Virus record (IMG/VR): IMGVR_UViG_3300042870_000531
Span: 1 to 20,736 of that record
From: a virus
Length of the DNA stretch: 20,736 nt
Direction: 5' to 3' (one strand)
The position numbers were made by a program, and so were the translations under genes. Below are positions 8,123-20,406 of the stretch, in pieces. How positions within the stretch are numbered: the stretch's first letter is position 1; each line of letters begins with the position of its first letter. The notes beneath the pieces were generated by a model. The model did no database searches, was not told where the DNA came from, and saw nothing but the letters and a program-made list of their open reading frames with translations.

Positions 8123-8641
8123 TTACCGCGTCACACCATAAAAATAGAGGTCGCATGACTGGGCGTTGTATTCAAAACCAAAATCGGCAAACACAGTAGG
8201 CAAATCAAACACGCCCCGAAAATCCTGCTCAGTCAAATTCTGGTAGTAATCATTCGTCACCGGCGACTCATCCGGCAAACTATCGTGTGTTCCATGCTCA
8301 GCGCGCCCCGTCGAAGCGCAAGTGAAAAACACATACTTGCCAGACATTCGCGCCATGTTCGCAAACGTGGCAACCCATTCGCTGTTGTGCTCAAAACACT
8401 CCGCTGACACCACCACATCAAACCAGTTGTCAACGTAATCGAGTGACTGCCCTGCACACACACGATCCACGCCCGGACCCTCCACCAGGTCAACACCGAT
8501 ATATTCTTTCGCGTCGAAGAAATCGCGCACCGTCCCGTTGATATTTAATGAACCCACCTCGAGCACGCTCACCCCTGTAAAGGCATCCGGGAAACTCTCC
8601 CGCATCTTCTCAAAAAACACTCGTTGCTCAGGATGTGCCAT
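8123..8641 (-). CDS. Class I SAM-dependent methyltransferase, cassette member
   Basis: This 172-aa protein has the class I SAM-binding layout: motif I VLEVGSLNINGT (about 26-37), an acidic residue after the second strand (YIGVDLVEGPG, Asp51) and motif IV-like FDVVVSAECFEH (74-85). The C-terminal half has no target-recognition region I can name. Similar small methyltransferases often lie beside glycosyltransferases and modify sugars, so O-methylation of a glycan is a reasonable inference, but DNA or protein targets are not excluded. ATG at 8641 is chosen over a TTG 12 bases upstream; it overlaps the upstream stop as TGATG, which favours coupling. It is the last gene of the cassette. Confidence 0.78.
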   Translation of the reverse strand: MAHPEQRVFFEKMRESFPDAFTGVSVLEVGSLNINGTVRDFFDAKEYIGVDLVEGPGVDRVCAGQSLDYVDNWFDVVVSAECFEHNSEWVATFANMARMSGKYVFFTCASTGRAEHGTHDSLPDESPVTNDYYQNLTEQDFRGVFDLPTVFADFGFEYNAQSCDLYFYGVTR

Positions 8642-9300
8642 CACTTGCCCCAATCGTTAGCGCGCCGAATCTTCAAAGACCACTCACCAGCGGTCACATC
8701 GTCACGGTCAACCTTTCTTACAAAATAAACCTCGTTGGCGTTATAAGTTCGCGCGTTCTGTGCAACCCACTTAGTAGCGTGAACCGTCCCCTGTTTGACA
8801 TGAGTGTGTGGTGCAGTGACTTGCCTAATGGCAACACCTGCAACCTCACAGCGTCGCTGATAATCATCGTCCTCAAAATTTGCCGGAAAAATGTTCTCAT
8901 CGAACAAGCCCACAGCGTCAACCACGTTCTCGCCAACCCCGAAAAACTGCCAGTGAGGCCACTGATCGCTTAGCGTCAACCCATCCGGCGAACACTCCGC
9001 AGCAAAGTCCTCCAGCGTGCCAGGCTGAAACACCACATCATCACTAACAATCATCCACCACGGCGCAAACGGCGAACACTTAATACCAAGATTCCACGAT
9101 CCAGCACAGCCAAGATTTGCAGGCATATTCAACACCCGATAATCCGCTACACAATCCGGTATCGAATCAGTGCCCTCAAAGTTTGCGCTCGGGTGATTGT
9201 TCACAATGATGAGCAAGCCAACCGGGTAGTCAATGCTCGCCAACATTTTCACCGCTAGATCATGCCGCGTTAGTGTCGGCAGGATCATTACGGGAATCAT
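8641..9300 (-). CDS. GT2-type glycosyltransferase
   Basis: This 219-aa protein resembles the GT-A fold of family 2 glycosyltransferases: MIPVMILPTLTRHDLAVKML at the N-terminus, a SDD metal-binding motif (86-88, within MIVSDDVVF), and FEDDDYQRR (142-150), the ED-type motif around the catalytic base. It probably transfers one sugar from a nucleotide-sugar donor to a glycan or protein. The ATG at 9300 overlaps the upstream GT4 stop as ATGA, which fixes this start over a GTG 36 bases upstream. Its close coupling to a second glycosyltransferase and a methyltransferase suggests joint work on one modified structure. Donor and acceptor are unknown. Confidence 0.82.
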   Translation of the reverse strand: MIPVMILPTLTRHDLAVKMLASIDYPVGLLIIVNNHPSANFEGTDSIPDCVADYRVLNMPANLGCAGSWNLGIKCSPFAPWWMIVSDDVVFQPGTLEDFAAECSPDGLTLSDQWPHWQFFGVGENVVDAVGLFDENIFPANFEDDDYQRRCEVAGVAIRQVTAPHTHVKQGTVHATKWVAQNARTYNANEVYFVRKVDRDDVTAGEWSLKIRRANDWGK

Positions 9301-10496
9301 TTGAAAAACTCGCGTAGGAAAGGCAACCAGCCCCACTTCCAGACGCGCTCAGCGTCGAACTGAGAGGCAAACTCGCGGGCAACCTTAGACGGCCCACGAG
9401 GTGCTTTATAAGCCTCCACGAGGGCATTGTGAATCGAATCAACCAGCGGTATAGACCACCACGCCTTTTGAGGTTCATCCCAAAACGGGACACCCTGCAA
9501 CAACCAACCATCCTCAGCAACTAGGTCGGCACTCGCCGCCCAGCCCGAACAAATTACCCTCGTGCCACACGCCTGAGCCTCCACAGCCGGAATACCAAAG
9601 CCTTCCCCATACGAAGGGTTAGCCAACACGTCAAACGCGCTATAAAGCGCAGCCATGTCCTCCTGCGAGTAGCCCTTACGCAAACGGTCACGCTCCGGAA
9701 AAATGATTGACTCCGGTGGCACACCACACGCTTGCAAAAGAACCGGCAAGTCAAACCCGCCCATGATCCCTGACGGCTCGGTGTGAATGTACATCTTGCT
9801 TTTTGGGTATGACTTTAGGAATATTGACCAGGCCAAAATTAGTTCGGAATAGGCTTTGCGATGAATCAAACCGTTGGCCTTATTCGCGCTCACCACGCCC
9901 ACCAAAAACTCGTCAGGCTTGACCCCAAGATACTCGCGTGCCTTCACCCCGTCGCTCATAGTCTCGCGCGGCTTAAAGACTTTGGTGTCAATCGCGTGCG
10001 GAATATACGTTGACGCGATACCCGCCGCCTCAAGTTGGCGTTGCCCATGAGGTGACATTGTTATCGGTGTGACATTTGGGCGAAGCAGCCACTTAGCCAC
10101 CGCCGGCGGCAATGACTGGTGATCCAGTGGAACCCAAGAAATAAACTTCGTTGGAAAATCGTTGCGCGGCGGAACATCGTTATACACCCACACGTCATAG
10201 AGCGTGAAACACGCGTCGGGCACGCCCGGATTCTGCCCCACAAAATCCTCATGCCACGGCTGAATCACATCATCGCTGTACTGTTTGAACCCGCGAGGGT
10301 AATGCGGAATCTTCTTCCCCGCAAACTCAAGCTCACCAGCAACACCCTCAAGCCCAAAATTACTTAGCGCAGCCACCTTGATACCGTGGCGCACCATCCG
10401 CTCCACCAGCATTGCGCCCTGCTGGCCGTAGCCGGTTGGTTGGCCGGGAGAATTTGAGGCGAGCGAAATAAGTCCGTCGATCTGTTCGTAGGTCAT
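9297..10496 (-). CDS. GT4-type glycosyltransferase (GT-B fold)
   Basis: This 399-aa protein has the GT-B family 4 signature EGFGIPAVE with Glu298 and Glu306 (E-x7-E), followed by AQACGTRVI and a C-terminal helix region. An N-terminal QPTGYGQQG (19-27) resembles the acceptor-domain loop. The enzyme likely transfers a sugar from a nucleotide-sugar to a glycan, lipid or protein in the infected cell. It is the first gene of the cassette, starts at ATG 10496, and has no strong ribosome-binding site, unlike its neighbours. It lies just after the plus-strand gene. A minus-strand promoter of its own is plausible in the AT-rich 10497-10609 region, but I could not identify a convincing one. Confidence 0.85.
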   Translation of the reverse strand: MTYEQIDGLISLASNSPGQPTGYGQQGAMLVERMVRHGIKVAALSNFGLEGVAGELEFAGKKIPHYPRGFKQYSDDVIQPWHEDFVGQNPGVPDACFTLYDVWVYNDVPPRNDFPTKFISWVPLDHQSLPPAVAKWLLRPNVTPITMSPHGQRQLEAAGIASTYIPHAIDTKVFKPRETMSDGVKAREYLGVKPDEFLVGVVSANKANGLIHRKAYSELILAWSIFLKSYPKSKMYIHTEPSGIMGGFDLPVLLQACGVPPESIIFPERDRLRKGYSQEDMAALYSAFDVLANPSYGEGFGIPAVEAQACGTRVICSGWAASADLVAEDGWLLQGVPFWDEPQKAWWSIPLVDSIHNALVEAYKAPRGPSKVAREFASQFDAERVWKWGWLPFLREFFK

Positions 10497-10919: not shown

Positions 10920-12080
10920 TTAGGCAGTGCCACCACGGAAGTAGTTGACCGAATCGGCAGCGAGACCGGAGTCCCCGCGCCACGTCACCCGGAACGTCGT
11001 AACATCCTGGTTGAACGCGTAGTCAGTCGAAGTTGCAACCTGAATACCGCCAGCCTGACGAACAATGAAGTCATCAAGCTTTCCGTAAACAATGCTCTTC
11101 GATGCGGCAGTTGCAGCAACAGCCGGCATGGAAGCGTTCTCGTGGATCACGTTGCCCATCAGGTAATCGCGGCCATCAACCGAAATTGAGGGTGCGAAGA
11201 TGAAGTTACCTGCGGTGTCCTTGATCTTACGGATAGCGGCGAGTGCCGAGGTCGAAACCATGAAGCCATACGATGCGCGGTTGTCACCGGCTACCGAATA
11301 GGTCAGGTCAACGAGGTTTTCGTATGTCGGCGCACCGCTTGTAGCGGTTCCCGTTACACCCGAACCGGCAGCGGTGACGATACCCGTAGGCTCAACCGTT
11401 CCAGTACCCGTGGTCAGTTTCGCGCCAGCATCAAACGCGATTTCACGCGACGAAATACGGGCAACCAGGTCGAGAAGGTTCACGCCAGAATCAGCAATGA
11501 TCTCGTTCGACAGGCTAACCAGTGCACCGAACTTGTACGCACCAAGGTTCAGCTGACTGAGCGTAGGGTTCTGCTCAGAGATAGCGGAACCGGCAGCAAA
11601 CTGACCGTAAGTACCGGCAGCCGTAACCTTAGGAATCTGCAGCGTGTTGCCACCAGTGGTCGTGATAATGGTGGACGTGCTGAACAGCGGGTTGCTGTTC
11701 TGCAGGAACTCAAACACCTGGGCGTAGAAGTCGTAAGGAACAACTCCCGAACCGCTAGTGGGGGTAAGAGCAGCGCGGAACTCGTGGCCACGCATTTCTC
11801 CCATAGCAATGCTACGAAGAATCGCAGAATCGTCACGAGACTCAACAGCAGGAACGAAACCGCGTGCGGCTTCAGCAACCTCAGCCTGACGCTCCTCAGA
11901 GCGACGTGCTACGGAAATGCCGGTGTCAATGTCGGCAATACGAGCCTCGAGACGCTCAACGTGTCCCAGGTCGTCAACGGTGAGGCCACGGGCCTCAGCT
12001 TCAGCCCGATCAAGGATGTCACGAACCTGAAAAATCAGGTTAGCGCGTTCCTCAGTCTGGCCCTTAATGAAATCACTCAT
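10920..12080 (-). CDS. Major capsid protein, HK97 fold
   Basis: This 386-aa protein is the main shell subunit. Residues 1-105 form a helical, charged delta-like domain (MSDFIKGQTEERANLIFQVR; GHVERLEARIADI) that probably works as an internal scaffold and is removed by the protease during maturation; cleavage position was not determined. After about residue 108 the sequence is HK97-like: SGVVPYDFYAQVFEFLQ, the E-loop/P-domain part (TSTIITTTGGNTLQIPK), and a C-terminal FRVTWRGDSGLAADSVNYF. ATG at 12080 is used, not the TTG 39 bases upstream, because GGAG lies 8 nt before it. Hand-counted plus-strand G and C are more balanced than in the neighbours, a codon-use difference that fits a highly expressed gene. 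Confidence 0.9.
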   Translation of the reverse strand: MSDFIKGQTEERANLIFQVRDILDRAEAEARGLTVDDLGHVERLEARIADIDTGISVARRSEERQAEVAEAARGFVPAVESRDDSAILRSIAMGEMRGHEFRAALTPTSGSGVVPYDFYAQVFEFLQNSNPLFSTSTIITTTGGNTLQIPKVTAAGTYGQFAAGSAISEQNPTLSQLNLGAYKFGALVSLSNEIIADSGVNLLDLVARISSREIAFDAGAKLTTGTGTVEPTGIVTAAGSGVTGTATSGAPTYENLVDLTYSVAGDNRASYGFMVSTSALAAIRKIKDTAGNFIFAPSISVDGRDYLMGNVIHENASMPAVAATAASKSIVYGKLDDFIVRQAGGIQVATSTDYAFNQDVTTFRVTWRGDSGLAADSVNYFRGGTA

Positions 12081-12203: not shown

Positions 12204-13874
12204 TTACAGGCTATCGAGCAACTCCATGAGCGCAATCTTCTTACGGTGCAACGCCAACTGATCAAGGCCGTTCTGCTCAGTCATCGCCTCATCCATCGGC
12301 GCATCCTCAACCGGTGCTTCTTCTTCAGGTACCAAAGCGTCCAAAACCAACTCCATAACTTCCTTCTCAGCGTAAGTGATTGGCTCACCAGCAGCAACCT
12401 TGCCAAGCACCATGCTGAGCGCGTCATAGTCAACGCCGACAGCCACAACAACATCTTCTAATGAGCGCACTTGAGCAGTTCCGTTCGTCGAGGGGTAAGC
12501 CGGAAAAGCAACCCCAGTTGATACTTCCAAAAGGCGCACAGACTTCAGTGTGCGTTCAGTGCCGTCTGAGCTCCAAGAGTCACCGTTAGCGGGAACAGTA
12601 AACCCAAACGAGAACCCGGTCACATCACCGCGCTGGATCAGCACCTTTGCATCACGTCCAGCCTGAGTGTCCGGCAGGTCAGCCTCAACACGCAAACCCA
12701 TCTCATCTTCATAAAGACGCAACGTGCCCGACCGAGTCGAACCGAGAACCGAACTTGAGTCATGGTTCCACAACAATTTGATGTCGTTCTTAGCGCGAAG
12801 TGAACGCTTGAACGCACCAGGCGCAATGCGCTCAATAAACGGCAATGGCTCAGAAGGCTCGTTAAACCGAGCAGCGTAGCCGGTGAGCGTCATACCTTCA
12901 GCCGTTTCGCGCACCTCAAAATCGTTTACAAAAACGCGAGTCTCAATTTTCGACACAGTGCCACCCTTAGATCGGTTAGTGTTCTCCGCCTCAATTCTAC
13001 CAATTATATCCTCAGCATAGGAAAGCACCCTGCGCGCGCCCGACTTGCCACCATCCGAACCCCACAACGCATGAGCAACAACACCCGCGCTCGGGTAATT
13101 GTCCGAGTCCGGATTAGCATCCGGCGAATCCAAATCAACCAGGTGGCGGGAAATCCACGCCGCAATCCGCACCCACTTATCTGCCGAAACCTGACCGGCA
13201 ACCATATCGCGCGCCTCGCGCACCGTTCGCCCCGTCAAACCATCCCCAGCAAGCCCTTCAGCGAACCATTCAAGCCCTTTACGGGCCGCATCCACCATGT
13301 AAGCCGGTGGTGTCAAATCAACGGCTCTAGCCTCCGCACGAGAAGCCGGAACTTCATTAGGGTGCAGTGCCGTGATACCGGCGGCTCGATAGGCCGCGCG
13401 TGCGCCCTCATCGTTATCCACCGCAACCATCACGTTATATGTTTCCATCAACCGCACCGCAGTCTCAGCCTTGAACTCGTTACTAGTCAAAGACTCATCC
13501 GGGCGCATAATCAAATCATCAAAGCGCACCCCGGCATCCGTCAGCTCGTTGCTCGTGCGCTCACGATCCTCCTCGAGTCGCCCCGTCACCACAAAAATAG
13601 ACGTGTCAGGGAAACTGTCAAGATACGCCAACAGGTTCTCGTTCGTCTTGTTGCCGTCAATGAAAATCGTGCCGTCAATATCAGTCACCACAACCTGTGG
13701 CCCCGACTCATTACGCTCACCCAAAAACTCAACCTCCTCCGCCAACGAAATCGCCACCGCCTGGTCAATCGCAGACTGCTTCGTTGTGTGGCAACCAAAC
13801 ACCTCATCGGAGTCAATGGCCATGACAGCCCAACCGGAGCAATCCGCGTTCTCTTGCGTAATGTAATAAGGCAT
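12204..13874 (-). CDS. HAD phosphatase-prohead protease fusion (capsid maturation protease)
   Basis: This 556-aa protein is far longer than a usual S78 prohead protease (about 200-250 aa). Residues 1-50 form a small domain (MPYYITQENADCSGWAV) that I have seen at actinophage structural-protein N-termini. Residues 58-172 show the HAD phosphatase motifs in order: DIDGT (Asp65, Asp67), VVTGR (Thr97), Lys135 and VDNDE (Asp153, Asp155), most like a phage 3'-phosphatase/acid-phosphatase type. Residues 186-296 are a helical domain of unknown role. Residues 308-472 are the protease: TRVFVNDFEV, His371 (WNHD) and Ser422 (GFSFGF), the probable catalytic pair. The last 85 residues are acidic. The protease trims the capsid delta domain; the phosphatase role is unknown. 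ATG overlaps the upstream stop as TAATG. Confidence 0.88.
   Translation of the reverse strand: MPYYITQENADCSGWAVMAIDSDEVFGCHTTKQSAIDQAVAISLAEEVEFLGERNESGPQVVVTDIDGTIFIDGNKTNENLLAYLDSFPDTSIFVVTGRLEEDRERTSNELTDAGVRFDDLIMRPDESLTSNEFKAETAVRLMETYNVMVAVDNDEGARAAYRAAGITALHPNEVPASRAEARAVDLTPPAYMVDAARKGLEWFAEGLAGDGLTGRTVREARDMVAGQVSADKWVRIAAWISRHLVDLDSPDANPDSDNYPSAGVVAHALWGSDGGKSGARRVLSYAEDIIGRIEAENTNRSKGGTVSKIETRVFVNDFEVRETAEGMTLTGYAARFNEPSEPLPFIERIAPGAFKRSLRAKNDIKLLWNHDSSSVLGSTRSGTLRLYEDEMGLRVEADLPDTQAGRDAKVLIQRGDVTGFSFGFTVPANGDSWSSDGTERTLKSVRLLEVSTGVAFPAYPSTNGTAQVRSLEDVVVAVGVDYDALSMVLGKVAAGEPITYAEKEVMELVLDALVPEEEAPVEDAPMDEAMTEQNGLDQLALHRKKIALMELLDSL
12954..12968 (-). promoter_or_regulatory. Internal ribosome-binding site and GTG start within the fusion gene
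   Basis: Inside the fusion gene, in frame, AAGGGTGG (12968-12961) is followed 4 nt later by GTG (12956-12954), codon 307. Translation from it would give about 250 aa beginning MSKIETRVFVNDFEV, which is exactly where stand-alone S78 proteases usually start. The site therefore could yield a protease without the phosphatase part. Its use is inferred, not shown. Confidence 0.5.
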
Positions 13875-14765: not shown

Positions 14766-16127
14766 CTAAATCACATCCTTATAGGCCTTGTTCGGGTCAG
14801 TAGGGTCGACTTGCGCCACGGGTTGCAGTTGCGTACTGGGCAAACCAGTGTGTGCAATCGGGTCAAGACCAACAGCCGCCAACGACTCCGCCGGATCATA
14901 ACCAGACAACACCAAAACATTAGCCATACGCACCCGCTTCTCATCCGCCGTCAACTCGGAATCCGTAATGGTCACGTTCGCCAACGGTACGCGCACCTCG
15001 TTTGCATACGGCGATTCAACCGGCAACAAATCCTCAAGACGGCGCACATCATTGATAGTCAAATACCCCGCCTGTAGCCCCGACGAATACGCGGCAGTAC
15101 GCGCCTGAATGTTCGCACGCAAAAGCGCATCCATGTTGAACTTCACATACGCGTTCTCACCACCAGGCGAACGCCTCATCAACGGAGAAATAGCAGACTC
15201 AATCTTTGCCACCATCGGCTGAATAGTCGAAGTCAAAAACGCCCGGTTGTTCTCCTCAACGCTTGCATAGGCCATAGTGCCCGGAAGCCCGAGCAAGTGC
15301 GGTGGAATGTTTAGCGCACGCGCCACATCCTCGACAGCGAAACGGCGTGAGTCAATCAAGCTCGACTGTTGCGGGTCAATCTGAGTCGGTTTGAATTGTG
15401 CGCCGCCCGACAGCACGCCGGTGCGGTTAGACCGCGACCAACCCGAGTGTCGTGAATCAAAACCTGAACGCAGGTTGTCAGCTTGTTCCTGCGTGAGGTT
15501 GCCGGGGAACTCAATAACACCGGCAAGGTTAGTACCAGAACCAAAAAAGGTGGCCGCGAACTTCTCGAGAGCGAGAGCAAGACCAAAGTTTTCTTTCAAC
15601 GCAGTTACCCGTGAGACACCACGCACCTGACCAGGGCGCAACAAATCCGGGATATAAAGAATGTCATCGGCGGTCAACGGTTGTTCCTCGCCAGTCACAT
15701 TGAACTGCAAACGCCCAATACCGTTTCTGACAATCTGCACCGTGGTCGGGTTCAACACAACAAGGTTGACAACCTCGCCCCGTCGGTTCGAGTACACGCG
15801 AATAAACGCATTGCCATCGAGTAGCAGACTCGTGACAACCGACGAATAAAACGCTTGCCGCGGCAAATCAACATCAGGCTGATCCACCCAAGACGGCTTA
15901 GGCCGAAACGGAAAACGCGCCCCATCACGATTAACAAAACAATCAACCGGCAGAGTAGAAACCAAATCACTGATAAGACTGACACCGCTAAAAATCGCGT
16001 TGACCTGAAACACCGTGTCATTGTTCACAACAGTGCCAGCAAGGTTGTTCAACTCAACCATGTCGCCCGAAGCCCACATGGTTTGATACGAGATATTGCG
16101 CTGCTCGAACAGACGATTGAACAACAT
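14766..16127 (-). CDS. Portal protein, HK97 type
   Basis: This 453-aa protein forms the 12-subunit ring at one capsid vertex through which DNA is packed. It has the typical HK97 portal pattern: VFQVNAIFSGVSLISDLVST (about 39-58), LLLDGNAFIRVYSNRRGEV (101-119), DILYIPDLLRPGQVRGVSR, and the central FAVEDVARALNIPPHLLGLP (about 264-283) followed by the clip and crown region. Length fits the family. It lies directly downstream of the terminase and of a tiny two-TM gene whose stop overlaps the portal ATG as TAATG, so translation is probably coupled. The C-terminal tail is Pro-rich and polar. Confidence 0.9.
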   Translation of the reverse strand: MLFNRLFEQRNISYQTMWASGDMVELNNLAGTVVNNDTVFQVNAIFSGVSLISDLVSTLPVDCFVNRDGARFPFRPKPSWVDQPDVDLPRQAFYSSVVTSLLLDGNAFIRVYSNRRGEVVNLVVLNPTTVQIVRNGIGRLQFNVTGEEQPLTADDILYIPDLLRPGQVRGVSRVTALKENFGLALALEKFAATFFGSGTNLAGVIEFPGNLTQEQADNLRSGFDSRHSGWSRSNRTGVLSGGAQFKPTQIDPQQSSLIDSRRFAVEDVARALNIPPHLLGLPGTMAYASVEENNRAFLTSTIQPMVAKIESAISPLMRRSPGGENAYVKFNMDALLRANIQARTAAYSSGLQAGYLTINDVRRLEDLLPVESPYANEVRVPLANVTITDSELTADEKRVRMANVLVLSGYDPAESLAAVGLDPIAHTGLPSTQLQPVAQVDPTDPNKAYKDVI

Positions 16128-17798: not shown

Positions 17799-18228
17799 CA
17801 GGTCGCTTCATTGCCATAAGCTCTTCCAACTTAGACATCTTCTGCACCTCAGCCACACCCAACTTCATGCGATCCGTAGGCGTAAAACCCAAAATAGAAA
17901 GATTAGAACGAATTGATTTCTCCAACTCGCGCAACGCAGCACGCTCACGCCACGCCTCAACATCAGACAACACCAACTCGCGCAACGAATCACGCTCATC
18001 AAGTTGCTCACACAAAATCTGCAACACGTCAATGTCAGTGGAAAGCGAAAGCCAAACCTTCCCCATGCTCCAAATGCGTTTCCACAACTCGAGCCCCGAC
18101 GGCCCCAACATGCGCAACGGCTCAGGCATCACCTCAACCTCCGGCACAAACGTCACAGACTCACTCGGCTGATAATGTCGCGAACCAACCAACCGCTTCA
18201 GCTCAGCAGGTTTACCAGGATTAACCAT
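17788..18228 (-). CDS. Terminase small subunit, P27-like
   Basis: This 146-aa protein begins MVNPGKPAELKRLVGSRHYQ, then a Pro-rich loop and a mostly helical body (LELWKRIWSMG; DIDVLQILCEQLDERDSLRE) ending with LGFTPTDRMKLGV and a short helix. The GKPAELKRL start and the TPTDR-type ending are features of P27-family small terminases. The protein binds the packaging site on phage DNA and hands it to the large subunit. It lies between the HNH nuclease and the large subunit and overlaps both (8 nt and 11 nt). Start is ATG at 18228. Assignment rests on short motifs, gene order and length. Confidence 0.75.
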   Translation of the reverse strand: MVNPGKPAELKRLVGSRHYQPSESVTFVPEVEVMPEPLRMLGPSGLELWKRIWSMGKVWLSLSTDIDVLQILCEQLDERDSLRELVLSDVEAWRERAALRELEKSIRSNLSILGFTPTDRMKLGVAEVQKMSKLEELMAMKRPDAE

Positions 18229-18862
18229 TTACAAACTCCAAACTATCGCTCTTCCGAATGTTACAAATCCAATGCGCCAAACGCACATTCTCCAACGAAT
18301 CCAAACCACCTTTCGAAATAGGCACAACATGATCAACCGTTGCACCAAAACGAGACACTCGAGACACAGACATATCAACCAAACCCGAACAAATATGACA
18401 CACAAAATTGTCACGCTCTGCCAAAACAAAAATGTCAATGCGCTCCACAGTCTTCGCGCCCTGACGCTTCACAGTCTTCTTACGATTACGATGACGAGTC
18501 GCCTCAGCCCTGCACGCATCGTGATACAACTTCGACGCCAACGAGGAAGAGGACACCTCAACCCCATCACCACACCATCCACAAATCTTGACTTTAGTTT
18601 CCGGCCTCGAGGCTCGCACCAACTCAGCCTTTCGCAAAGCTCTTTGACGATTAGCTTCCACTGAACAATCAGGCGAGCAATATCTTTTTCGCTTCCCAAC
18701 CTCAAACGCTAATCCGCAAACCTCACACAACACCGTAACTCGCACACTTGGCTGATAACGCTCAAGCCTGCATACGTTGCCATTACACAAAAGCCGTTCG
18801 CCGCTCACAAGCGCGCCAGAAATCATCACCCCGCAAGCATCACAAAGTAGGTTTGTTTCCAC
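18221..18862 (-). CDS. HNH endonuclease with several zinc knuckles, terminase-adjacent
   Basis: This 213-aa protein has Cys pairs resembling zinc sites: C7/C10 with C26/C31, C46/C49 with C62/C66 and C94/C97 with C117, then the HNH core: C155/C158 (FVCHIC), Asp177-His178 (DHVVP), Asn192, His197 and Cys200 (WICN). HNH nucleases next to terminase often help cut concatemers at cos, as shown for HK97 gp74, so a role in packaging is likely, with homing as the alternative. The start is uncertain: GTG at 18862 is chosen; a TTG at 18880 would add 6 residues and an ATG at 18826 would lose the first CxxC. None has a good ribosome-binding site. Confidence 0.85.
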   Translation of the reverse strand: METNLLCDACGVMISGALVSGERLLCNGNVCRLERYQPSVRVTVLCEVCGLAFEVGKRKRYCSPDCSVEANRQRALRKAELVRASRPETKVKICGWCGDGVEVSSSSLASKLYHDACRAEATRHRNRKKTVKRQGAKTVERIDIFVLAERDNFVCHICSGLVDMSVSRVSRFGATVDHVVPISKGGLDSLENVRLAHWICNIRKSDSLEFVNG

Positions 18863-18880
18863 TCTCGAAGTATTACACAA

Positions 18881-19024: not shown

Positions 19025-19345
19025 TTACAGTGGTTTGTTGCCTCTTGCTTGGTTGCATGACCGGTGGCTAGGCGCGAGCGGAGACTGATCGCCGAGCGTG
19101 GGGTCGAGGTGGTCTGCCTCCCACGGGTCGTTTGCTTTGTAGCCTTCATGGCAGATGTGGCAGTTTGTTGCGTTTGCTTTTACTATTGGTGCGAGTCGGC
19201 GGTAGTTGGGGCCATACAGCCCCCGCTTACGGGCTACCCGTATGGGGTCACTGTCCCGTTTTCTTTCAATCGCTTTTGCGCACACGTCGCAGTAGTTGTT
19301 GAGACTTAGTGCTCCGCAACCTAGGCAAGGCTTGTTGAATCTCAC
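19025..19345 (-). CDS. Small HNH endonuclease
   Basis: This 106-aa protein has an N-terminal zinc knuckle (C7/C10 with C19/C22: CLGCG, YCDVC), a basic linker (KRDSDPIRVARKRG) and a compact HNH: C62/C65 (CHIC), Glu76-Ala-Asp78-His79 (EADHLDP), His94 and C97-Asn98 (HRSCNQARG). It is a phage-type HNH nuclease, distinct from and smaller than the terminase-adjacent one. It probably nicks or cuts DNA, either as a mobile homing enzyme or as a packaging/replication helper. Its GTG start overlaps the upstream glycosyltransferase stop as GTGA, which decides the start. Its location next to the possible cos region is suggestive only. Confidence 0.85.
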   Translation of the reverse strand: MRFNKPCLGCGALSLNNYCDVCAKAIERKRDSDPIRVARKRGLYGPNYRRLAPIVKANATNCHICHEGYKANDPWEADHLDPTLGDQSPLAPSHRSCNQARGNKPL

Positions 19346-20406
19346 TGTAGGCCGTGTATAACGTTGGCGAATTGTTGTTTGATGTTTGCCCAGTCGTATT
19401 GTTGCGCGGCGTTGAGTGCGATGGTGTGTCGGTTGTTCCAGTCTCTCGTGATACTGCGTATGTCGTCGGGTGCGCTGTCTAGGTCTGTGACGAGCACAGC
19501 CTCATAGCCTCGAGAGCCAGCGAGAAGCGTTACTACGGGCAACCCATACGCGAGTGCCTTAGCAATCTTTAGGTGTGTGCCTGAGCCTTCAGTAACCAGG
19601 TTCACAAAGATATGTGACATCTGTAGCAGTCGGTCAAGGGCTTGCTCAGTCTTGTAGCCGTGAAGTGTCACGTTTGGTTCGTCGCTGGTCAGTGGCTCGG
19701 AGCATCGCCCGACGATGTGAATGTGATACTCAGGCAGTAGGTGAGCCATGTCTATGAGTCTTTGCGCGGCTTTAATGTTCGGCCCGTACAGTGATCCGAC
19801 AAAGATAAGGTTTAGGTTTTCGCCGGTTGCAACCTTGTCTGGTACGTGTGTGCCGTTGGGTATGTGTGTGCCGGGTGGTAACTCCCAGTTGTCGCCCATC
19901 ATGCGCCAATCATCGGCACTGCAATAAGTAACGTGTTCTGCGCCGGAGACAGCCCACCTTTCGATGTCGGCAACCATGTTGTAGTCCATGCTGTTGCGCC
20001 CGAACAGTGACGCGGTTGCGAGACTTTCAAAGTTGTGTGCGTCATACAGGTATGGTCGGCCATCGGTTAGCTCTACCAACCAAGGGTGCTCGAGGATAAT
20101 CAGGTCAGGGTTGAAGTCATCTATCGCTTTTCGTATTACGTTCAGATCATCTAGGCAGAGTGTGGGCATTGCGTCATAACTGTGGAAGCCCTGCCCGAAC
20201 AGTTTGTGCGCCCGGTCAGCGGCCTTCGCACCGGCTGGTATCACACGGTAAGGCATCCCGTTGAGCGCGGTCTGAGACTCTTGGTTATCCCACGACAGTG
20301 CAAACGTAGTCACACCAGGCACACCGGTTAGCAGTTCATAACAGCGTTGCTTACCGCCCGTGTCTGGCGTGCTGATATCCCACGGGACTAGGGCAAGTGT
20401 TTTCAT
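19342..20406 (-). CDS. GT-B glycosyltransferase (GT4-like)
   Basis: This 354-aa protein is a third glycosyltransferase, apart from the 8641-10496 pair. N-terminal features are MKTLALVPWDISTPDTGG (typical GT-B start, 1-18) and YDAHNFESLA (121-130); the C-terminal donor domain has LIFVGSLYGPN (200-210), HIVGRCSEP and EGSGTHLKIAKALAYGLPVV (273-292), the nucleotide-sugar binding signature. The enzyme likely acts on a surface glycan or a virion protein. It lies between microprotein genes and an HNH gene, with an ATGA overlap upstream and a GTGA overlap downstream, so the genes are co-translated. Base skew differs from the late genes, which may mean a different origin. Confidence 0.87.
   Translation of the reverse strand: MKTLALVPWDISTPDTGGKQRCYELLTGVPGVTTFALSWDNQESQTALNGMPYRVIPAGAKAADRAHKLFGQGFHSYDAMPTLCLDDLNVIRKAIDDFNPDLIILEHPWLVELTDGRPYLYDAHNFESLATASLFGRNSMDYNMVADIERWAVSGAEHVTYCSADDWRMMGDNWELPPGTHIPNGTHVPDKVATGENLNLIFVGSLYGPNIKAAQRLIDMAHLLPEYHIHIVGRCSEPLTSDEPNVTLHGYKTEQALDRLLQMSHIFVNLVTEGSGTHLKIAKALAYGLPVVTLLAGSRGYEAVLVTDLDSAPDDIRSITRDWNNRHTIALNAAQQYDWANIKQQFANVIHGLQ

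Follow-up and report, generated by a model that had tools for sequence, protein, structure and literature searches.

The window analyzed here is a virus record of 20.7 kb, in which the head genes are arranged in the order terminase, portal, two small genes, protease, capsid protein, and glycosyltransferase. The protease gene is located between the portal gene and the HK97-type capsid gene both in the window and in its relatives (Table 1). The contigs that carry relatives were binned with uncultured Microbacteriaceae, the nearest isolate phage is phiPsal1 from Pontimonas salivibrio (Microbacteriaceae), and the source of the window is a phage of aquatic actinobacteria. One SAM methyltransferase-like and three glycosyltransferase-like genes are present in or near the head operon (8123-10496 and 19342-20406), and phiPsal1 likewise has glycosyltransferase and methyltransferase genes placed after the capsid gene. 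Two genes with HNH-like zinc motifs (18221-18880 and 19025-19345) are found next to the head operon, at its small terminase end.

The protease gene is a minus-strand ORF of 556 codons; the earlier note was silent on the strand, and the plus strand is closed over the same interval. The product starts with a short N-terminal module (NTD), followed by a HAD phosphatase domain, a helical domain (HEL), and an S78 prohead protease, and the claim of the earlier note that the last three are joined in a single 556-aa product holds, as judged from the ORF, from Pfam, NCBIfam and PHROG matches, and from the predicted fold. The protease assignment is supported by a Pfam match (PF04586) to residues 319-474 (E 3e-45, 154.7 bits against a cut-off of 21) and by a match to the NCBIfam HK97 proheadase TIGR01543 (E 5e-33, 114 bits against a cut-off of 59). 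The two catalytic residues of the protease, His371 and Ser422, are both invariant among 34 sequences. PHROG 80 (head maturation protease) covers the N-terminus, the helical region and the protease and skips most of the HAD stretch, which gave the first hint that the HAD domain is an inserted module. The whole-chain AlphaFold2 model has a pTM of 0.32, so that the arrangement of the domains in the full-length protein is not predicted. An origin of the fusion by chance or as an assembly artefact is ruled out because many metagenome contigs, independent of one another, carry the full-length fusion.

Table 1. Features of the protease locus, with predicted sites and domains of its product.
Feature	Position	Strand	Evidence
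Portal protein, constant upstream neighbor in relatives	14766..16127	-	Gene list, relatives
NTD-HAD-HEL-S78 prohead protease, 556 aa	12204..13874	-	ORF, Pfam, TAATG overlap of its own start with the stop of the upstream gene
NTD, residues 1-54, DUF2188-like	13713..13874	-	Pfam E 0.011, under the Pfam cut-off; conserved block in alignment A3; PHROG 80 positions 1-58
HAD phosphatase domain, residues 58-176, Pnkp 3'-phosphatase-like; D65, D67, T97, R99, K135, D153	13347..13703	-	PHROG, profile, fold, homologs
Linker E-A-R183 (HAD/HEL), candidate self-cleavage site	13326..13334	-	Arg in 73/73 relatives, E-x-R in 57/73; predicted cleavage
HEL, six-helix domain, residues 186-297	12984..13319	-	No PDB fold match; recurs in phage head proteins
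Shine-Dalgarno-like AAGGGTGG ahead of the internal start	12961..12968	-	Sequence, anti-SD pairing
Internal start GTG, codon 307, predicted 250-aa free protease	12954..12956	-	ATG, GTG or TTG in 73/73 distinct relatives
E-T-R313 at the S78 N-terminus, candidate self-cleavage site	12936..12944	-	E-x-R in 72/73 relatives; predicted cleavage
S78 (HK97-type) prohead protease core, residues 319-474; His371, Ser422	12453..12920	-	Pfam, NCBIfam, conservation, fold match to T4 gp21 (5jbl)
HK97-type major capsid protein with propeptide; 7 E-x-R motifs, all in the first 115 residues	10920..12119	-	Gene list, relatives, motif count
E-F-R115, predicted propeptide/mature boundary of the major capsid protein	11775..11783	-	Comparison with the annotated phiC31 mature start, EKR/DGT

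Single-sequence searches with the HAD domain yielded weak matches (Pfam families Acid_phosphat_B, E 3e-6, and HAD_PNKP, E 0.002; PHROG 415, E 7e-13), and Acid_phosphat_B was the sole Pfam HAD family above its cut-off. The best fold match in the PDB is the 3'-phosphatase domain of T4 Pnkp (5uj0; Foldseek E 1.3e-5, target TM 0.68), followed by the whole T4 Pnkp and Pnkp1, with weaker matches to the HAD domains of Nir2, lipin and MDP-1. A profile search of the PDB detected bacterial Pnkp1 (4xrp, E 4e-5); Pnkp was recovered with the diverse profile A5 and missed with the near-clade profile A2. Proteins of isolate phages that match the HAD domain are mostly annotated as polynucleotide kinases, and searches of the 556-aa product against Pfam and PHROG found no P-loop 5'-kinase domain. 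In both fold and profile, the domain is nearest to the T4 Pnkp 3'-phosphatase, and the HAD assignment, weak from the single sequence, is firm from the fold.

The conserved motif residues are placed at the expected strand ends in the AlphaFold2 model, where the block pLDDT of the HAD stretch is mostly 77-92, and all four HAD motifs (I, DxDxT; II, Thr; III, Lys; IV, Asp) are in place in 69 unique homologs. In the diverse alignment A5, residues D65, D67, T69, T97, R99, R104, K135, and D153 are kept. Among the 69 homologs, six of these (D67, T69, T97, R99, R104, and K135) are invariant; position 65 is Asp in 68 and Glu in one, and position 153 is Asp in 62 and Glu in seven. The earlier assignment thus stands for Asp65/67, Thr97, Lys135 and Asp153 and fails for Asp155, which is not a conserved catalytic residue because positions 154 and 155 vary. 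The lone homolog with Glu in place of the motif I nucleophile (TEIDDT in L206, 2647-3687) may be an inactive copy. The dN/dS values of the HAD domain are 0.04-0.18 in the measurable pairs, resembling those of the protease domain, and by this measure the domain is under purifying selection. The possibility that it is a dead relic is ruled out by the invariant motifs and the low dN/dS.

Structure prediction confirmed the helical domain, which the earlier note had placed at residues 186-296, as six helices spanning residues 186-297 (pLDDT 96). HEL has no Pfam match, and its predicted structure has no match in the PDB below an E value of 1. Among predicted viral structures, it was detected in prohead proteases, XkdF-like proteins, portal proteins, and a capsid-protein fragment, and it stands at the front of the protease-capsid fusions of Synechococcus phage S-CBS1 and Roseobacter phage CRP-821. 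Because HEL recurs in phage head proteins, we infer that it is an inner-head adaptor. Instances of the domain come from cyanophage, roseophage and actinophage head proteins alike (L097, S-CBS1; L098, CRP-821; L099, a Nodularia phage; L100, DSL-LC01). In DSL-LC01, a separate gene annotated as HiPIP is located directly upstream of the HEL-bearing gene, itself annotated as a protease.

The same domain order was found in other phages. HAD scans of IMG/VR recovered 72 and 84 relatives (44-100% identity), and at least 84 IMG/VR stretches carry the HAD domain. Wherever the gene is readable, HAD is within the S78 gene and almost always accompanied by HEL, with the portal gene upstream and the capsid gene downstream where the contig extends that far. 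The HAD-protease fusion was absent from all isolate phages searched, 300 genomes of the host family contained ordinary stand-alone Pnkp-like HADs and no fusion, and an open-access literature search found no report of such a fusion.

Scanning with HEL, followed by typing of the modules, revealed a general order that starts with NTD, continues with SH3-like, HAD or HiPIP-like, and Tudor (PF11160) or DUF5824 (PF19141) modules, and ends with HEL and S78. More than 20 module combinations were observed, incomplete genes counted, and HAD and HiPIP-like modules never occur in one protein of the typed set. When 73 proteins are placed on trees made from HEL or S78, HAD appears or disappears at least 15 times; in L024, a close relative of L020, HAD is missing with a clean junction. 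HAD is one of several exchangeable modules in a slot before the protease, and its lack in many close relatives implies that it is dispensable in those phages. Three relatives (L066, L070 and L078) share 83-85% identity with the window in S78 and 46-48% in HAD, and two (L201 and L204) have the order NTD-HEL-HAD-S78. In L074 and L078, the NTD and HAD are identical and the S78 domains have a dS of 1.43; identical NTD-HAD parts on such strongly diverged proteases indicate a recent recombination near the HEL/S78 boundary. In L035 (5001-6541), the NTD and SH3-like part and the HEL-S78 part are in different overlapping frames, representing either two genes or a frameshift.

The GTG at codon 307 and the sequence AAGGGTGG just upstream of it are both present, as the earlier note had pointed out. 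Its further claim, that this start coincides with the usual beginning of stand-alone proteases, is exact for Rhizobium phage 16-3 (aligned residue 307) and approximate for phiC31 (near 310) and Paenibacillus phage Wanderer (near 317). In the clade of the window, codon 307 is GTG in all relatives but one, which has ATG. Across 73 distinct relatives, the aligned codon is always a start codon (ATG in 47, TTG in 18, and GTG in 8; 72 were matched by a pattern, and the unmatched L213 reads Met), so that the encoded residue is Met, Leu or Val; in the background codon usage, TTG accounts for 28% of Leu codons and GTG for 24% of Val codons. At least five changes of this codon were mapped on the tree, every one inside the start set. 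The gene thus appears to be one with a nested in-frame start, in which the start codon is kept across the relatives whatever the residue.

Relatives that keep the fusion retain the start codon, contrary to the refuting outcome set out in the earlier note, and the Shine-Dalgarno-like sequence as well; mean anti-SD pairing at the internal start is -7.5 kcal/mol versus -3.6 kcal/mol for all in-frame positions. In the clade of the window, codon 307 ranks fifth for such pairing and several in-frame start-like codons are equal or stronger, so the Shine-Dalgarno-like sequence alone is weak, non-distinctive evidence, and its strength was rejected as proof of a start. A tie of the internal start to the HAD fusion only was likewise rejected: the start still adjoins S78 when the order is NTD-HEL-HAD-S78 and is kept in relatives that lack HAD or contain other modules, and therefore belongs to the protease. 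At the full-length start, pairing is weak (-2.2) and the start codon shares the sequence TAATG with the upstream stop; both features would fit translational coupling. Given the conservation of the internal site as a start codon, two products, a full-length fusion and a free protease, are likely made from the gene. The lambda C/Nu3 gene is a known case of a head-protease gene with a nested start and long and short in-frame products; the short product is a scaffold in lambda, whereas here it would be the protease.

A candidate cleavage motif for this protease group, E-x-R, emerged from the capsid proteins. The annotated mature capsid protein in the phiC31 record begins right after E-K-R, and the phiC31 capsid protein contains six E-x-R motifs, all in the propeptide, with the last one exactly at the boundary. 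In the family of the window, 21 of the 22 distinct capsid proteins have E-x-R in the corresponding region. Compared with residue shuffles, the 22 proteins contain 127 E-x-R in the propeptides against 35 expected and none in the mature parts against 4.4 expected, where the motif was picked after the alignments were inspected and the propeptide boundary was drawn from the motif region itself together with the phiC31 comparison, not experimentally. The S78 protease would probably cleave the capsid propeptide at these candidate E-x-R sites.

The same motif marks both edges of HEL in the protease itself, at the HAD/HEL boundary and at the S78 N-terminus, and an Arg precedes HAD in 30 of 34 sequences. 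This recurrence suggests that the protease may free its own N-terminal cargo. E-x-R also occurs inside HEL (R222), HAD (R104) and the HiPIP-like module, so either some E-x-R are left uncut or the protease destroys some modules; the NTD, Tudor and SH3 modules contain no internal E-x-R. The HiPIP-like Cys-rich modules (L031, L034, and L002) have about four E-x-R per 100 residues, above the other modules, and should be shredded if E-x-R is the cut site.

We propose that ribosomes arriving from the upstream gene would make the long protease, with NTD, HAD and HEL in front, and that those initiating at codon 307 would make a plain 250-aa S78 protease. HEL, as an adaptor, would hold the long form in the prohead interior. 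After assembly, the protease would trim the capsid propeptide at the E-x-R sites, and the long form would cut itself twice, at R183 and close to R313. These cuts would release an NTD-HAD fragment of some 20 kDa in the head and leave a mature protease nearly the same as the internal-start product. The freed HAD would most likely strip 3'-phosphates from nucleic-acid ends, either on the DNA inside the head or, once ejected, in the next host; this is the weakest step. In phage SPN3US, the prohead protease matures internal head proteins that are thought to be ejected (PMC10052503). For the model as a whole, from two products and loading of the long form through self-cleavage at E-x-R to a Pnkp-like end phosphatase, the chances appear evenly balanced. 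Only tentatively do we extend it to prohead proteases of this group as self-releasing cargo carriers, in which exchangeable modules would be N-terminal fusions on a subset of the protease molecules, with the second start setting the dose, the cargo would be released by E-x-R self-cleavage, and a Pnkp-like phosphatase would be packaged and delivered with the genome; this broader proposal is possible but somewhat doubtful.

The principal alternative is that the N-terminal block serves only as a scaffold or for targeting and is broken down or leaves the head at maturation; any HAD activity would then fall before or during assembly, for example, on host or phage proteins or on nucleotides in the cytosol, and not in the virion. 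The propeptides of tailed phages usually exit the head (PMC10052503), so HAD might be lost in the same way, and the E-x-R sites within HEL and near HAD, along with the many relatives without HAD, are compatible with such a fate. Nevertheless, the HAD catalytic residues are invariant and under selection, and E-x-R is found mostly at module edges and not within the NTD, Tudor and SH3 modules; we consider this alternative unlikely, albeit a serious one. Another possibility is that HAD, whether or not it is delivered, does not process nucleic-acid ends and is instead a small-molecule or anti-defence phosphatase with a nucleotide or a signal molecule as its substrate. HADs are diverse in function, and both the Acid_phosphat_B match and the weaker fold matches to Nir2, lipin and MDP-1 leave room for such a role, but Pnkp phosphatases rank first in both the fold and the profile searches, and PADLOC gave no match for HAD, which makes this reading quite improbable. 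A defence-system reading was rejected, the only PADLOC match being a weak one, to a short candidate model, within the NTD. Because the relatives of HAD are Pnkp 3'-phosphatases, nucleic-acid ends are favored over the nucleotide-processing and anti-defence roles that the earlier note had also listed. Finally, it is very unlikely that codon 307 is an unused relic of an ancestral stand-alone protease, with the long form alone made and then cleaved, because, although the codon coincides with stand-alone starts and autocleavage at about R313 would yield nearly the same product, an unused start would be expected to change into other codons for Leu or Val, and this was seen in none of the 73 distinct relatives.

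Several known systems come near to this architecture. The stand-alone HK97-type prohead proteases (Peptidase_S78, TIGR01543), such as those of Rhizobium phage 16-3 and phiC31, are alike in the protease domain, the catalytic residues, the gene place between portal and capsid, and the start point, but lack the 306 extra N-terminal residues that contain the phosphatase and the helical domain. With the T4 Pnkp 3'-phosphatase domain (5uj0, 2ia5) and bacterial Pnkp1 (4xrp), its nearest structure and profile, the HAD of the window shares the fold and motif residues, whereas it consists of about 120 residues without a kinase domain and is fused to a capsid protease. The prohead protease of phiPsal1 (MG835450) has the same NTD-module-HEL-S78 order, the same head gene order, and an internal TTG at the same place, but its slot is occupied by a HiPIP-like Cys-rich module instead of HAD. 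S-CBS1 and CRP-821 also have HEL ahead of S78, and CRP-821 additionally has a DUF5824 module; unlike in the window, their protease is fused onward to the major capsid protein and HAD is missing.

The analysis points to the module slot before the protease as a place to survey for virion enzymes, to E-x-R as the predicted cleavage motif of the protease group, and to a conserved gene that likely encodes two products. If the proposed mechanism is correct, small siphophages would have a general means of loading head enzymes without dedicated internal proteins, by attaching the enzymes to a self-cutting maturation protease, and a phosphatase of the DNA-end-healing type would be placed where the packaged DNA lies.
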